From Rhizophlyctis rosea (Eukaryota > Chytridiomycota > Chytridiomycetes > Rhizophlyctidales > Rhizophlyctidaceae), in contig JADGJC010000188.1 in the NCBI GenBank assembly GCA_027596075.1, positions 1 to 64,000 on the forward strand: a DNA stretch of 64,000 nt, in the 5' to 3' direction. Shown piece by piece: positions 12,608 to 43,809 of this stretch. The position numbers and the translations under genes are program-made. How positions within the stretch are numbered: position 1 is the first letter of the stretch; each line of letters starts with the position of its first letter. Under the pieces are notes generated by a model, which saw only the letters and a program-made list of their open reading frames with translations, was not told where the DNA came from and did not search any database.

Positions 12608-15600
12608 CTACATGTCCTGTTGTCTACACATATCGGCGTAAATCCCATTGAGTGCAACCAGTTGCTGATGATTCCCATATTCAACAATCTGACCCTCGGT
12701 AACCACGGCAATGAAGTCCACGTTCTTGATTGTTGATAACCTGGTAAGCAAGGACCCTGCGTGTAAGCAGCAAGAATCAATGAATAACGGGGACCATGGC
12801 AACCTTACCGGTGAGCAATGGTGACTGTCGTCCTTCCCATCGCCGCTTTGTCAATGGCCTTCTGTACTTCAACCTCACTAGCAGAGTCCAAAGCACTGGT
12901 CGCCTCATCCAGTAGCAACAGCTTTGGTTTTCGGATCAAAGCACGGGCAATAGCTATGCGTTGCTTTTGTCCTCCGGACAAGTGACCTCCCTTTGCACCA
13001 ACTTTAGTGTCATAGCCTTGAGGCAATTTAGCAACAAAGTCGTGGACGTCGGCTTGCTTGGCGGCCTCAATAATATTGTCCAGAGTAACAGGGTTCTCGG
13101 ATCCCCACGCGATGTTGTCAGCTATGGTCATGTCGAAGAGAATGGGTTCCTGGCACCGACAAATTTAAAAGTTTTAAAAAACCTTTGCATGCTGCTGTCT
13201 CAGTTGGCCCATGTCATACCTGTCCGACTAACGCCTGATGTGGACGCAACCCGTTCAACAAATGGTAGTCGCGAATCGGAACGTTGTTGATCGACGCTTC
13301 ACCCCCACTGGCATCGTACCATCGTTGCAACAGACCAATTACGGTGGACTTCCCGCAGCCAGACGGACCGACCTGTGATAGTCGTTGAAATAACTCCAAT
13401 CTCCAGGATGCATCATTACTCAGTGTCATGTTCGTACCAATGCAAGAGAAGTATTCTCGACCCCCTCCAACGAAAATTGCCCTCGGAAAGTAGGCTCAGT
13501 TGCGGTAGGATATTGAAAGATCAAATCTTTGAACCTGAAGCCAGCATGGAATTCCGGTGCGATATGACCGTCTTTCTCTGGATCGATAGCTGTTTGACGG
13601 TCTAGGAGCAGGAAGGCCTGGAGCAAGACGAAGCTTCAATGAGGCTTTCCATACTTTATCTGCACAACGCTCCCTACCGTTCTTGCTGCAAACTTCCCTT
13701 TCGAGAAGCTATGTGTTGCAGCGGCCGAATTTGCCATTGATATCATGGTTGTCATCATGCACAAGGAGGTTGAAATGACCTGCAAAGGATGGTGCAGTGA
13801 ATACATTAAGATACCTGGCATTCATCACTTTGTCACAAACCATAAGGCGACTTACCCCTTTGGTATCTACTTTCCCATGTTGCGTCAGCATGCTACCAGC
13901 GAAGAATCCCACTGCCAATGTCAACATCGCGGCAGTTCCCTGAAGCGCATCTGCAAACGTATCCACAAACGCATTCCTCTTCGTCAACGCATACGGCTTT
14001 GCCAAGAAGGCGTCGTACCGCTCCACCGCAAAGCCCTCTCGCTGCAACGCCTTCAAAGTCTTTACATCCCGGATAGACTCGTTTGCAACAGACGTGGACT
14101 GCTCGAGCGCTTCTTTACTTGCTTCCGCAAATTTCGAATTGGACGTGGCTTGCCAGTAGGTTGCAAACAGTATCAATGGCGCTGGAATCAGGAGGACGCC
14201 CACCATGGTAGTAGAAAACGCGGCTGAGATCATGATCCCTCCCAAGGCCGTCATGCCCAGTTCGGCTATTGAGCCCCATACGTCGGTGATGATATGTGAT
14301 ACTCCAGCAACAGCACCCAATTTGTAGCAGAGCACACCGACCGCGTTCGATTTAGTGTCGAAGAAGCCCATTTCTTGTGAGAGCAGGTTACGAAACACTA
14401 GTGATCGGAGACGCATGGTGCATCGAGCGTCCACTTTGCCGAATGATGCAACTTTGCCCCATCTGGTGAACAACGCCAAGAAGGCCATAACCACTATGTG
14501 CTCATACTGCATCAGTGACATTTGCGAGCGGGGGTGAAGCTCAAAATTACAACTCTTACAAAAAACTCACCCATCACCAAGATGTAAAAATTCGCATTTT
14601 CCTTTGTCGCTATTTTGCTTAAAGTCAATCCAGTGACGACAGCAAACCCTGGCATCACCTAGACCAGACAATACGTCAGAAAAAAGTTCCACAGCGAAGG
14701 AATATGTATATTCTGCACATACAAGTCCACCAATCAACGCGGCGATTGTTCCGTTGACGATGTGACATGTGTCTGGCCTCATCAACCCCAGAACCCTTCT
14801 CACAATTTTGCCACCCGCATTCGTCGTTTCCTGCTTATGCCGCAACTTCTCTTCCTTCAGCCTCAATCTCGTCTGCTTGGCAATAACATCCGGTGAATCC
14901 ATCCGGATAATGGGTCCCATCAACATCTTCCGAACTTCCTCGTTTGCCTCGTACCCACTTCCTTCTTGCATCTCCGCCCCTTTTCCTTGCACCGGAGAAT
15001 CCTCGCCTTGCTTCCCTTCCGTTGCCGCGACCGATAGCTTCTGCTTGTCAACAAGCTGCGTATATACCCCATTCCTTGCATACAACTCGTCATGATTTCC
15101 TTGCTCAATCACTTCCCCTCTTTGCATGACATAGATCACATCAGCATTCCTGACGGTCGACAACCGATGGGCAATCACAATAGTCGTTCGTCCCTTGGAA
15201 GCTGCGTCTAAAGCCTTCTGCACTAATCTTTCCGACTTTGTATCCAAAGCTGAAGTCGCTTCATCTAACAAGAGTATCTTAGGATCCTTGATCAATGCAC
15301 GTGCGATAGCGATGCGTTGCTTCTGACCACCGGATAACATGCCCGGCGTGACGGGTGTGTCGTATCCGAGAGGGAACTTGGTCACAAAGTCGTGGCAGGC
15401 GGCCATTTTGCAGACGGAGATGAACTGAGCGGGAGGAATGTCAGTGTTTGGTGGGAGACCTAGTAGGATGTTCTGCTTAATTGTAAGAGCAAAAAGGACG
15501 GGTTCCTGTCTGTAAATGCCAAGACTTAGAACAGTTTACCATATAGCATTGTTACAGCTGTCCTTACCCGACCACACCAATGGCCCTTCTCAGGTCTCCA

Positions 15601-27130: not shown

Positions 27131-27518
27131 TCGCGTTGATCGCGAGCGTTGTTTTGAAAGACTAGCACCTTCTTGTACCTGAGCTTTAGACTGTGCTGTG
27201 CACTATCAAGATCCAAAACTAGAAGTAATAGATAAATGTGATGAGGGTTGAACGAGCTGCCAGTCCGCTCTATGTCACCAAATTGGTTGATATTATCACC
27301 ATGAGAAGTATGAGATATTTGATCCCACAATATGACGGTTGGAAACCACGAAACGCTTGTGAAGTTGTGCAATGTGAACTGGCTCCGACATGTGACTGTG
27401 CATTGGTGGATGACACTTGTGCAACCATGGGCGAGTTCATGTCACATTTTCAATAAATAGACCCCTCATCTCATCATTGGCTGGCCTTCCTTTTTCACGA
27501 AACAGCGTAAAAATCACC
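27131..27518. other. Intergenic; promoter of the ankyrin-like gene
   Basis: No gene. An AT-rich CAATAAATA stretch at about 27451 lies 65-70 bases before the next start codon and could serve as a TATA-type element. Confidence 0.4.
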
Positions 27519-29252
27519 ATGGCTCATTCCTTCCTCATCCCTGCCATCGAGGCACTATCTGTATCTTCGCCAATCATCCCGCCATCACCTCAACAACACG
27601 ATACCCCGCCATTAATAACCGCGAAAGACCCACCCAGTTTGCCTCTAGAGCTCATCGACGCATGCATCCTCTTTCTTCCAGATAAGAAGCATCGATATCG
27701 CACAGCCGTCGCCCTCGGCAGGACTACCTTAAGCCTTTCCATCCTCTTCTCCCATTTCCAATGCGGCGTCCTCCATGCGTGCGCCCAAGGACGCATCGAT
27801 GTCCTTTCCGCTTGGCTCACCTCCCGCACCACCGCCAAATTCCTAAACCAGCACTACAAAGATAGGGCTTTGCAACTTGCCAGCGAGAATGGTCACATCA
27901 AGGTTCTGGACTGGTGGGTCAAATCGGGGCTCATGCCGCCATTGAAACAGACGCATCGGAGTATGGATCTTGCTAACAGCAACGGACATGTGGCCGTCTT
28001 GGAGTGGTGGCGCAACAACTGCACTGTTCACAATCTGCCTCTGCTTTACTCGACGAGATCGATGGATAATGCGAGTGCGCATGGTCATTTGGAGGTTTTG
28101 GAATGGTGGCGAGAGAGCGGGTTGCCGTTGCGGTATAGTAGAAACAGTATGGACTTGGCAAGCCAAAACGGGCATCTCGGCGTTCTAGATTGGTGGGCTC
28201 ACGGTCCGTTTCAACCACGGTTCTCCCGGAAGAGTGTTGTTTTTGCTTCAGCGTCAGGTCGGGTGGATGTGCTGGATTGGTGGATGGCGAGCGGGTTGGT
28301 GGATAACTTGTGGTACGAAGGGCTGGACGGTAACGACAAAGGTCCCTTTCGATCCTCTCCTCTGGACCTCGCAAGCGTAAATGGTCACCTTTCAGTTTTG
28401 GATTGGTGGGCTCGTCATACGCGCCTTGCCCGCATCGGTTTCACCACGGTCGCCATGGATTCCGCTCCCTCCTTTGAAGTACTGGATTGGTGGATATCCC
28501 ACTTAGAGCCCAATTGGTCTATTCAACTGTCCATGCCGCAACTTGGCATCAACACATCCGGCCTCACTCCATCCTTCCCCTCGCCTGGTCCAATCCTATA
28601 CACCCATGATGCTATCGACACCGCCAGCGCCAACGGAAAAATTGAGATCCTAGAATGGTGGCTCGAATCAAACCTCCCACTAAAATACACCTCTGCCGCC
28701 GTAGACGCTGCCAGTGCAAACGGCCATACCCACATCCTAGAATGGTGGCTCAATTCCAACCTTCCTCTCAAGTACACGCACGCCGCCATAGACGCCGCAA
28801 GTGCCAACGGCCATATCCACGTTCTTGAATGGTGGGCTCAAAGCGGGGTAGAAATGCGTTGTTCCCGCTGGCAAGAAACCTTTCACAATCGGTTTCCCCG
28901 AAGTCGCTACAGTGTATCAGACAGCGCTCCACCGTGGTGCGCTATCCTTCCTCTTGAGCTTGCAACGGAGCATAATCACTTACACGTCCTTGAATGGTGG
29001 GTCCAAAAGGATTCTGAAGGGTTTTGGAAAGAGGGCATTGGGATACACAAGATGGCGGAATCGGGGTGGAAGCAGTCTAAGCGGGCGCCGGAAGAAGCGA
29101 AGGAGTGGTGGGAGCGGAAGGGACTTGTGATGACGTGGAAACCAGACAGTTTTCATTATTGTGAGGAGTGTCGTAGGTACACTTGTGGGAGTCAATGTGA
29201 TTACTCTTACGAGTACATTTCCGGAGTTATTCGCGATGGGCGCAAGGAGTGA
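27519..29252 (+). CDS. Ankyrin-like repeat protein with Trp-Trp core repeats
   Basis: A single exon of 577 residues. The start CACCATGG was chosen over an upstream in-frame Met for its Kozak fit. After an F-box-like N-terminal segment (LPLELIDACILFLPDKK) come about a dozen degenerate ankyrin-like repeats of 30-40 residues with the pattern MDxAS-x-NGHLxVLEWWxxSGLPLKYS. Such repeats are abundant in chytrid genomes as lineage-specific families and probably bind proteins. The last ~50 residues contain CEECRRYTCGSQC, a possible small metal-binding tail. Together with the F-box-like start this suggests a substrate adaptor of an SCF-type ubiquitin ligase, which is inference. A broken relative lies at 22.0-22.7 kb. 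Confidence 0.88.
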   Translation: MAHSFLIPAIEALSVSSPIIPPSPQQHDTPPLITAKDPPSLPLELIDACILFLPDKKHRYRTAVALGRTTLSLSILFSHFQCGVLHACAQGRIDVLSAWLTSRTTAKFLNQHYKDRALQLASENGHIKVLDWWVKSGLMPPLKQTHRSMDLANSNGHVAVLEWWRNNCTVHNLPLLYSTRSMDNASAHGHLEVLEWWRESGLPLRYSRNSMDLASQNGHLGVLDWWAHGPFQPRFSRKSVVFASASGRVDVLDWWMASGLVDNLWYEGLDGNDKGPFRSSPLDLASVNGHLSVLDWWARHTRLARIGFTTVAMDSAPSFEVLDWWISHLEPNWSIQLSMPQLGINTSGLTPSFPSPGPILYTHDAIDTASANGKIEILEWWLESNLPLKYTSAAVDAASANGHTHILEWWLNSNLPLKYTHAAIDAASANGHIHVLEWWAQSGVEMRCSRWQETFHNRFPRSRYSVSDSAPPWCAILPLELATEHNHLHVLEWWVQKDSEGFWKEGIGIHKMAESGWKQSKRAPEEAKEWWERKGLVMTWKPDSFHYCEECRRYTCGSQCDYSYEYISGVIRDGRKE

Positions 29253-37210: not shown

Positions 37211-40200
37211 TCACTGACCGTTGGATGCTCTACCATCCTTCCACCAACCGAAGAGGAATCCCAATACCGCATACGTCCCATCCCAAAACCGCTCCTTCCG
37301 TCGAATCCGGTTCAAAGTCCTATCCACTTGCGACACTTCCGGATGATCCGCCCCAAAGTGCACCCTCAGAATCTCCCGTGCCTCAACCAAATACGCTTTC
37401 GCCGCCGCCCAGTCCCCTTCCTGCTCAGAAACGAGGCCCAGCTCGCCGACCGTACGGGCGCTCTTCAGATGGCTGCGCGTGGGGTAAAGCTCGACCTCAA
37501 TCTCCCGACACTTGGTAAGAAACTCTTTGGCGGCCTGCAGATCACCTCTTGAGCGAGCAACAACTCCATAGGAGAGGAGATAATGATGGACGATCGGGTG
37601 ATAGGGAGTACCGTATGTGGTGGTAAGGAGGTAAAGTTTTTGGGAGAAGGAGAGTGGACGTTTGACAAAGAGGTCGAAAATTGAAATCGAGTTCGAGCTC
37701 GCCATCCCGCATTGCACATTGGGAGAGTCACAAGGGTTGTGCGGCTTAGGCAGCTTCGCGGGAAGTGCCTCCACGAATTCTCGAAGGTAATTTTCAGCCG
37801 ATTGAAGATTTCCCCGCAGCCTAGCTATGTCACCAAGCGTAAGGTAGTCAACCGCTATGAGCTTGTAATCTTTCATTGTGAGGTCAATTTCCAAAGCTTC
37901 CTTTATGTAAGTCTCCGCCGCGTCCATGTCACCTTCCCCTGCCGCGATTCTAGCTAGGAACCTTAACGGTGAGGCAACATCCGGATGATTTCGCTTGCCG
38001 TAGACTATCCTTTGAGTTTTCAGTGCTGCGATCAAGTAGGTCTTGGCGACATCGTTCTGTCCCTTCATCATAGATATCCGGCCGAGGTATTCCACTGTCA
38101 ATGCGACTTCGGCGTGATTGCGGGATCCCAATCGAATGGTTTGCAGTTCCAGGGCCATTTCGCAGAGTTGTTCAGCGGATTCGAAGTTGCTCTGGGTATA
38201 CATGTCCTTGCACAATGAGTATGCTACGTCCGATGCTGGTTTGAAAGCTGTCTTTTCGGATGTTCTTCTTAGCAATGCAACGGCTGTGACCACATGCTTG
38301 ACGAGCATCCTCCTAATGCTGCTGTCTTCCACCGACTCTTTGCCCATGCCTCTGACGTACTTGTCCAATGCATGGACAGCCCGCCTCACCCAGAACCCAC
38401 TGATTTCGCCATCAAATACGCTTCCGCCATATGGTTCCAAAAACTGATTTGCGAGTAGTTGGTATAAGGAATGGATGGACACCGTCTTCGGTTGGAGCCG
38501 TATGAGGGAGGAGGATTGTAAGGAGCTTAGGGCGGAGTCGAGAAGGTCGGGTGCCCTAGAAGCATCAATTGACACCGCGAGTAGGCTTTTGGGAATATTT
38601 TCCGGAGCAAAACATGACGCGACGCCAAGAATATTTCTGCATGATTGCACAGATCAGAATCAAAAGCTGGAGCGGCGACCCAGTGCTTGTCTCAATGAAG
38701 CTTACATTGCAGCTCTCCCCACCTCGCCCTCCCTCTGCAATTGGGCCACGTTGAGGTGAAATGCACCAGCCAGTGACGAGCGATATTTGCTGGCTTTGCT
38801 GACGTAAGCTAACGATGCATTGCGGAATTGGGGCAGGTAATATTTGAGGCCGCCTATACGTTTTTCAATGGCATAAGAAGCCACCTGCTCAACGGCAAGC
38901 GGATATCCGTCCAGCAGATCTAGCAACGTGTCGAGGGCCTTGCGCTCATCTGTATCGTTGCTGACAATGTCCTTCCACTCCGGTTTCCGAGCAAAGAGAT
39001 ATGACTCGGTGACTGTACGTGACCAAGGCTCCAACTCAATCGACCGTGTTGCCCCAAACCACTCCCCCACGGTGTTGTCCCGAGACGTGATCACGACATG
39101 CCCGGCAAACTTCCTAGCAGCCCCAAAGAGTTCCTCCAAAACCCGCTGATCATCCGCATTGTCTATGACTAACAAGTAGCCTGGTGTTGCGCCCAGCCAG
39201 TCAAACAGCGCCTTGCGTACTCTCTCTCTATCAGCCTGCGGCCCATCAACAAAGCTGGGCATGATTCCCAATGTCTCCACAGCCATTTCAATGGACTGGT
39301 CCGCAGCTTGCGCATCCACACACGACAACCACAATACATAAGCATAGGAATCCGCATTCAAACTGGCGTATGTGGTTGCGATGCTGCTTTTCCCCATGCC
39401 ACTGGGTCCCACGATGAGCGCCTTGCTGCCCTCCGCGAGCGTAGCCGTGATTTGAGCGAGGGTGGCATTGCGTCCGAATAGTTGCATTGGAAAATGAGGA
39501 ATAAGGGCCGTCTTCGCGACTGAGCTGATTGACACTGAGTGTCAGAAACAAAGATATTTCCTTTTCGGTTAGCGACGTACAGGCATAGAAATGATATTCG
39601 CATCGCATTCTTTGACTCACCCAAGTTTAGTCGCAAATCTGGCGTGGACTGCAAATGCACAGCGGGCACCTCCGTGCTCATTCCCACGCCATCCCACTCC
39701 ATCTTGAATGTAAAACCCAGCGAACTTCCTTTTGAAAGAAGGAATGGCCCCAGGAAAGGGAAAGTGCAGCCGATCAGGAGTACGAGGAGCGGAATAGTGA
39801 CATCTGGTCGTGGCGTTGGTATTGATGTCGGGTGGCGTGGAAGGGTTTTTGGAAAAAAGCGGGTGTAAGCGTCCAGCACTTCATCAACTACACTACGCAG
39901 ATCGTTGGGATCCAGGTGCTGGCCTTGCATCCGGAAGAGTTTGTTCATTGTTGCCGCAACTGGTAAACCGGACGCCCTATGCGCCAGATCGGGCTGGTCG
40001 TCAAACATTCCGAACGGTCTGCATTTGGTCAAAATCTTCCCGCTGTGGTCCAACGTCCCAACAAAGATGGGCAGCAGCTTCGATGTTGTCCTTTGATGCC
40101 TCCTCAAACCCTCCTCTATTTCCAGGAGCACGTTGTCCTGTAGCCCATTCGCCAGGTTCTTTTTCATGGTAGCCAGAGAGTCGTCGCTTATAAAGTAGAG

Positions 40201-40443
40201 GATGAGGTCTGAGTTGCGCAAGCCGTTGATGAAGCCCTCTTCCCAATCTTCGGCAAGCACGAGACAGTGCTTGTCAAAAAATGCAGGGAAAGTGCCTGGC
40301 CATCTTTGGGAGGCGGCGCTTTCGAGGGCTGCATGGAAGGACTCGACAAGTTTAGCATCGGGAGTTACTCGATAGGATAAAAAGATCCGATGATGCGTCG
40401 CATGGTGCATTCGACACGTCCAATTTACGTTGATCCTGATCAT
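37211..40443 (-). CDS. TIR / transmembrane / NB-ARC / TPR receptor-like protein (NLR-like STAND protein)
   Basis: Three exons in phase: 40443-39621, 39534-38706, 38636-37211, giving 1025 residues. Residues ~17-150 are a TIR domain: IFLSYR at the first strand, a DLILYFISDDSL strand, and LLEIEEGL, where Glu108 sits at the position of the catalytic Glu of NAD-cleaving TIR domains. A hydrophobic segment at ~216-237 could span a membrane. The NB-ARC ATPase follows: P-loop GPSGMGKSS (317-325), Walker B LLVIDNADD (~395-403), VVITSRD and the GLPL-like GYPLAVEQ. The C-terminal half holds about seven tetratricopeptide-like repeats (GDMDAAETYIKEALEI, GDLQAAKEFLTKCREIEVE, GDWAAAKAYLVEAREILR). By family knowledge this is a signal-sensing STAND NTPase: the TPRs sense a ligand, NB-ARC oligomerises, and TIR signals, possibly by NAD+ cleavage. 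The ligand and cell role are unknown; immunity or self/non-self recognition is inference. Confidence 0.92.
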
Positions 40444-43736: not shown

Positions 43737-43809
43737 TGCCTTCTGTGAGAATCGAACTCACGACCTTCTGCTTACTAGGCAGACGCTCTGCCAACTGAGC
43801 CAAGAAGGC
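43737..43809 (-). tRNA. tRNA-Thr (anticodon AGU), no intron
   Basis: 73 nt on the minus strand with a perfect 7-bp acceptor stem GCCTTCT/AGAAGGC, discriminator A, D-arm GGCTCAGTTGGCAGAGC, anticodon stem TCTGC/GCAGA with loop CTAGTAA (anticodon AGT), variable AGGTC, and T-arm GTGAG-TTCGATT-CTCAC. All invariant positions checked are present, and A34 would be read as inosine. Two tRNA-like half copies lie just beyond its 5' end on the other strand. Confidence 0.95.

Follow-up and report, generated by a model that had tools for sequence, protein, structure and literature searches.

Does a fungus of the Chytridiomycota encode a NOD-like receptor (NLR)-like protein whose TIR domain could cleave nicotinamide adenine dinucleotide (NAD+), and does such a gene stand alone in its genome? 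These questions are raised by a gene of Rhizophlyctis rosea on contig JADGJC010000188.1 (assembly GCA_027596075.1), of which positions 1 to 64,000 were analysed (the window). At 37211..40443 on the minus strand, three exons encode a 1025-residue protein of the order TIR, hydrophobic insert, NB-ARC and TPR. This protein is probably a NADase-type cell-death receptor, as predicted here from its domains and conserved residues. The gene is not alone: a TIR domain is the usual upstream neighbour of NACHT and NB-ARC modules in this genome, and this TIR-based repertoire is more notable than the single gene.

Gene structure and a paralogue on contig C10

Splice enumeration and translation give a gene, all of it on the minus strand, that starts with an ATG at 40443 (an alternative start ATG lies at 40410). 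Exon 1 (39621..40443) is an open frame that encodes the TIR domain, a conserved linker and the hydrophobic insert, and ends at a GTGAGT donor. Intron 1 (39535..39620, 86 bases) runs from this donor through the branch-like motif CTAAC to CTCAG, and is followed by exon 2 with the NB-ARC ATPase (38706..39534), intron 2 (38637..38705, 69 bases, GTAAGC to ATGCAG) and exon 3 (37211..38636), in which the nucleotide-binding module ends, with an IHSL motif, and the TPR array and the stop codon follow.

In Pfam searches, TIR_2 matches residues 20–131 (40051..40386) with 30.0 bits on exon 1 alone, over its cut-off of 28; in a scan of the whole protein the score is 27.2 bits, slightly below it. NB-ARC matches residues 314–516 with 29.9 bits (cut-off 23.5), and TPR stretches lie between about residues 695 and 984 (TPR_12, 71.1 bits against a cut-off of 30.1; TPR_10, 49.2 bits). 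Among the 24 Pfam families that match the protein at E ≤ 1 there is no ARM or SAM family and no leucine-rich repeat (LRR), TPR being found instead. The Pfam scan gave no match to HET (PF06985) and a mere trace of DUF7779 (E 0.067). A two-row NB-ARC profile matches the wheat-type CNL9/Sr35 resistosome chains (E 4e-5).

The only other NB-ARC match in the genome (44.1 Mb, 634 contigs), among the matches listed, is on contig C10, with a TIR_2 match upstream. Spliced, this paralogue is a 966-residue TIR-NB-ARC-TPR protein; a strict intron search yielded no model for it, and its introns were set by visual inspection, with translation as the check. In both genes the NB-ARC module opens with KTAL[IL]PH, and an intron lies directly upstream of it: the second intron in C10, intron 1 in the window gene. 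The two copies are 53–56% identical in the TIR domain and 36% in NB-ARC, and have in common a linker of about 40 residues after the TIR (ASGL...TM..LF..QG..LDP...VVD.VLD). Both NB-ARC modules carry the P-loop, IDNAD, ITSR, GYPLA and, at the MHD place, IHSL; the window protein thus has P-loop, Walker B, GLPL-like and MHD-like motifs. Because domain order, intron place, sequence identity and linker are all shared with C10, a chance row of open reading frames (ORFs) is very unlikely. An earlier note on this DNA had proposed one three-exon gene for an NLR-like TIR-NB-ARC-TPR protein; its coordinates, Glu108 and motifs proved correct upon splice enumeration, translation and Pfam analysis, and the single-gene architecture is upheld by strong splice signals, an unbroken frame and the paralogue.

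A genome-wide TIR-NACHT/NB-ARC repertoire

The repertoire was counted as six-frame hits among the matches listed, not as gene models, and several hits contain internal stops (introns or decay). TIR_2 yields 23 hits across the genome, 20 of them over the cut-off, and the window TIR as a query finds 29 matches at E ≤ 1, itself counted. The 29 NPHP3_N/NACHT hits correspond to 28 loci, since C135 is counted twice. A TIR hit on the same strand lies at most 3 kb upstream of 26 of the 29 NACHT hits (25 of the 28 loci), where a simple estimate expects about 0.05; at all of these loci except C285 (2.2 kb) the distance is within 1 kb. This count includes TIR_2 hits at C149 and C135 that are below the cut-off. 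The figure rises to 26 of 28 with C103, where half a TIR_2 match, also sub-threshold (26.4 bits, E 1e-5), stands in one ORF with NACHT and TPR. No TIR hit was found upstream of NACHT at C30 and C157:82616. With both NB-ARC loci, which have a TIR, the total is 28 of 30 NACHT/NB-ARC loci, C103 included (examples are L013-L016, L024 and L026). The generalization that TIR domains are rare in fungi, from which the earlier note had started, thus fails for this genome.

By subfamily hidden Markov model (HMM), the subtype of the window TIR is present in 18 of the 28 TIR-bearing loci (16 NACHT and 2 NB-ARC). The remaining 10 are of the TIR_2 type only, and the comparison with SARM1 presented below covers the window's subtype. 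Several TIR domains that are weak with the window query (E up to 0.17) score E ≤ 4e-13 when searched with the subfamily HMM, and the one at C173 was detected only in this way (E 1.7e-7).

The HET domain gives 34 hits in the genome (e.g. L047 and L048) among those listed, none of them closer than 3 kb to any of the 30 NACHT/NB-ARC loci and none on the contig of the window. We tentatively suggest, at somewhat below an even chance, that the NLR-like repertoire of this flagellated fungus is almost wholly TIR-based, 18 of the 28 TIRs being SARM1-like and retaining the NADase Glu, and that TIR here occupies the position of HET on NLRs of higher fungi.

Some further observations concern the same searches. 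Repeats judged by eye to be WD40-like lie downstream of NACHT in C75, C375 and C491. The strongest TIR_2 hit (71.8 bits) is inside a 713-residue ORF at L012 (C57:79500-86000, minus strand); contig C57 has no match in the NACHT or NB-ARC searches, which indicates a different TIR architecture there. The NACHT-like ORF at L045 (C157:81116-84469) lacks a TIR hit and matches DUF4062 weakly close to its N terminus. A flagellated fungus is indicated by exons of IFT57 that match at one locus and by 15 Fungal_trans hits in the genome.

Glu108, the hydrophobic insert and the proposed function

Glu108 (codon 40120..40122) is embedded in DNVLLEIEEGL and is invariant in the 19 aligned TIR rows of the window's subfamily; this alignment omits three HMM-found members, namely L094, which has an intron inside the motif region, and the short L030 and L033. 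With the 19-row profile, the best relative of solved structure is SARM1 (E 6e-6), and Glu108 pairs with its catalytic Glu642. Searches of the PDB with exon 1 alone or with a two-row TIR alignment returned chance matches only, SARM1 surfacing solely with the 19-row profile. In 17 rows the Glu is placed 20 residues past a loop Ser (Thr in L085), likewise in SARM1 by hand count, and in the window and C10 rows 22 residues past it. The AlphaFold2 model of the TIR domain has a mean predicted local distance difference test score (pLDDT) of 64.5 and a predicted template modelling score (pTM) of 0.63. The prediction of a Glu at the NADase position is therefore borne out as an alignment to SARM1 Glu642 and as conservation throughout the subfamily. 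In the HMM check of the TIR itself, TIR_2 exceeds its cut-off on exon 1; the older TIR model, PF01582, has zero matches anywhere in the genome. The likeness to the NAD+ hydrolases SARM1 and TIR-1 lies in the TIR sequence profile and the position of the catalytic Glu; the ARM-SAM-SAM-TIR architecture of SARM1 is not found, as the window protein has NB-ARC and TPR instead.

We consider it likely that the gene encodes a fungal receptor of the signal transduction ATPases with numerous domains (STAND) class, of the NLR-like TIR-NB-ARC-TPR kind, whose TIR domain would cleave NAD+ through Glu108 on activation, leading to cell death or growth arrest. The TPR array would form the sensor or regulatory end and NB-ARC a nucleotide-controlled switch. 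Activation would result in oligomerisation that brings the TIR domains together, and these, through Glu108, could then act by cleaving NAD+ or by producing a nucleotide signal, with regulated cell death or growth arrest as the outcome. We infer NADase activity, oligomerisation, a ligand, cell death and an immune or allorecognition role for this protein.

The TIR domain might also be non-catalytic or differently catalytic, serving as an adaptor through contacts between TIR domains or producing a nucleotide signal without bulk loss of NAD+. Some TIR domains are described as lacking the Glu or NAD+ hydrolysis, and for some, association alone is reported to be important (PMC9153377). In the fungal rows, moreover, the Trp-Val ahead of the Glu motif of SARM1 is replaced by Asn and then mostly Met or Val, and no downstream partner was identified. 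Retention of the Glu in every aligned row, at the position of SARM1 Glu642, argues against such a TIR domain and makes it, in our view, somewhat unlikely.

The second point to be weighed is the membrane segment that the earlier note had placed between TIR and NB-ARC. About 60 residues encoded at the 3' end of exon 1 are additional in the window protein relative to C10 and include a transmembrane-like stretch at about residues 217-237 (39733..39795, minus strand) with a Kyte-Doolittle 19-residue mean of 2.14 at its maximum and with Pro and Gly mid-stretch. The best splice model retains this insert, the frame being open over 69 codons up to GTGAGT at 39620, the best donor, and alternatives that would excise it in frame depend on weak donors. 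If it served as an anchor, the stretch would tether the receptor as a re-entrant hairpin or single span, perhaps guarding an organelle or the plasma membrane. A single span, however, would place TIR and NB-ARC on opposite sides. The codon score of the insert (-0.022) falls in the coding range, whose 5% point is -0.064, yet 21% of the 798 windows presumed to be non-coding score at least as high. The hydrophobic stretch is thus present, but a membrane segment is doubtful as a design of the family, because C10, in which the highest hydrophobic mean anywhere is 1.58, lacks the insert and because the maximum is no more than 1.35 in each of the five TIR-NACHT linkers that were measured. Membrane anchoring of the window protein is accordingly a rather unlikely reading, and we regard the insert as an unproven, local feature of this copy that should not be leaned on.

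Relatives outside the genome and known systems

Outside this genome the relatives of the window NB-ARC are bacterial and archaeal, with 31 loci at 24-33% identity among 202 candidates, and 15 plasmid records, of which 5 are named FxsT. Five bacterial relatives were scanned with Pfam: L054, L057 and L059, picked for their TIR-like N termini, and L052 and L053. TIR_2 is present in the former three and not in the latter two. In L059 (Bacteroidales) TIR_2, NB-ARC and TPR are all over the cut-off; L054 (Acidobacteria) has TIR_2 and NB-ARC over the cut-off and TPR below it, and L057 (Methylococcaceae) has TIR_2 and TPR, NB-ARC not being among the 25 rows listed. These proteins resemble the window protein in their domains, with NB-ARC modules 29-30% identical, and differ from it in carrying DUF7779. 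A STAND protein without an immune or death function would have a precedent in those bacterial NB-ARC/TPR proteins that have a different role or none assigned, and the prokaryotic affinity of NB-ARC fits this. The N-terminal TIR domain with its Glu and the multigene TIR-NACHT repertoire fit recognition receptors better, and TIR_2 is found on bacterial relatives as well; we judge a function outside immunity and death improbable. Less probable still, and very much so, are two separate genes, TIR and NB-ARC-TPR, falsely joined at 39534-39621: the joint does sit in an intron predicted from sequence only, but against it stand the strong splice signals, the uninterrupted frame and the C10 paralogue, which matches in domain order and in the position of an intron.

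For the window TIR no relatives were obtained by narrow pattern scans of prokaryote contigs (73 candidates) and viral contigs (40 candidates), by the TIR alignment used as a query on sets of 8 and 386 prokaryote genomes, or by tblastn on plasmids and phages; the genomes of L054, L057 and L059 likewise contain no match with E ≤ 0.01 to the profile of the window TIR. As the pattern scans were narrow and the genome scans lacked a positive control, this is weak evidence of absence.

Elsewhere in the window, a 612-residue ankyrin-repeat protein with many ..LEWW repeats is encoded at 27414-29252 (plus strand), neighbouring ORFs with the membrane and ATPase domains of an ABC transporter at 13709-15535 (minus strand), and a tRNA gene at 43737-43809 (minus strand).

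The TIR-NB-ARC-TPR architecture is not new, since fungal and bacterial TIR-NB-TPR proteins are named in print alongside plant TNP (TIR-NBARC-TPR, formerly XTNX) (PMC9806590) and one sentence of a 2022 paper reports NLRs of Chytridiomycota with TIR (PMC9815663). Land-plant TNP has the same domain order, a P-loop and Walker B, and a Glu in its TIR, and maize TNP is described as causing death that depends on the Glu and the P-loop (PMC9806590). The likeness to TNP is drawn from its published description, and among solved structures the window TIR is nearest to SARM1; the hydrophobic insert is confined to the window copy. The plant TIR-NB-ARC-LRR (TNL) proteins RPP1, Roq1 and RUN1 likewise combine TIR with an NB-ARC switch, but have LRR where the window protein has TPR. 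HET-NACHT-WD40 (HNWD) proteins and the SesB-like/NB-ARC/TPR proteins of Dikarya (PMC4986451) share the STAND module, C-terminal repeats and an N-terminal effector, in contrast to which the window protein has TIR_2 in place of HET.

On the distribution of such genes, a survey of 2014 lists no NLR hits in chytrids (PMC4986451), fungal TIR NLRs are stated to form a small group (PMC10197012), and no PF01582 TIR is reported for the fungi studied in 2010 (PMC2939053); further literature cited is PMC12881547, PMC7075850 and PMC7282519. Among the titles and abstract openings listed in literature searches, none reports a flagellated fungus with a repertoire of TIR-NLRs. PF01582 finds none of the TIR domains described here, and therefore surveys using that model alone could have missed them.

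If the TIR-based reading of the repertoire is true, the NLRs of an early fungal lineage would act chiefly through TIR domains that signal by cleaving NAD+. The approximately 28 TIR-associated NACHT/NB-ARC loci form a concrete set for asking whether fungal NLRs kill by NAD+ cleavage, and the same set bears on whether HET replaced TIR on fungal NLRs and on the origin of SARM1-like TIR domains.
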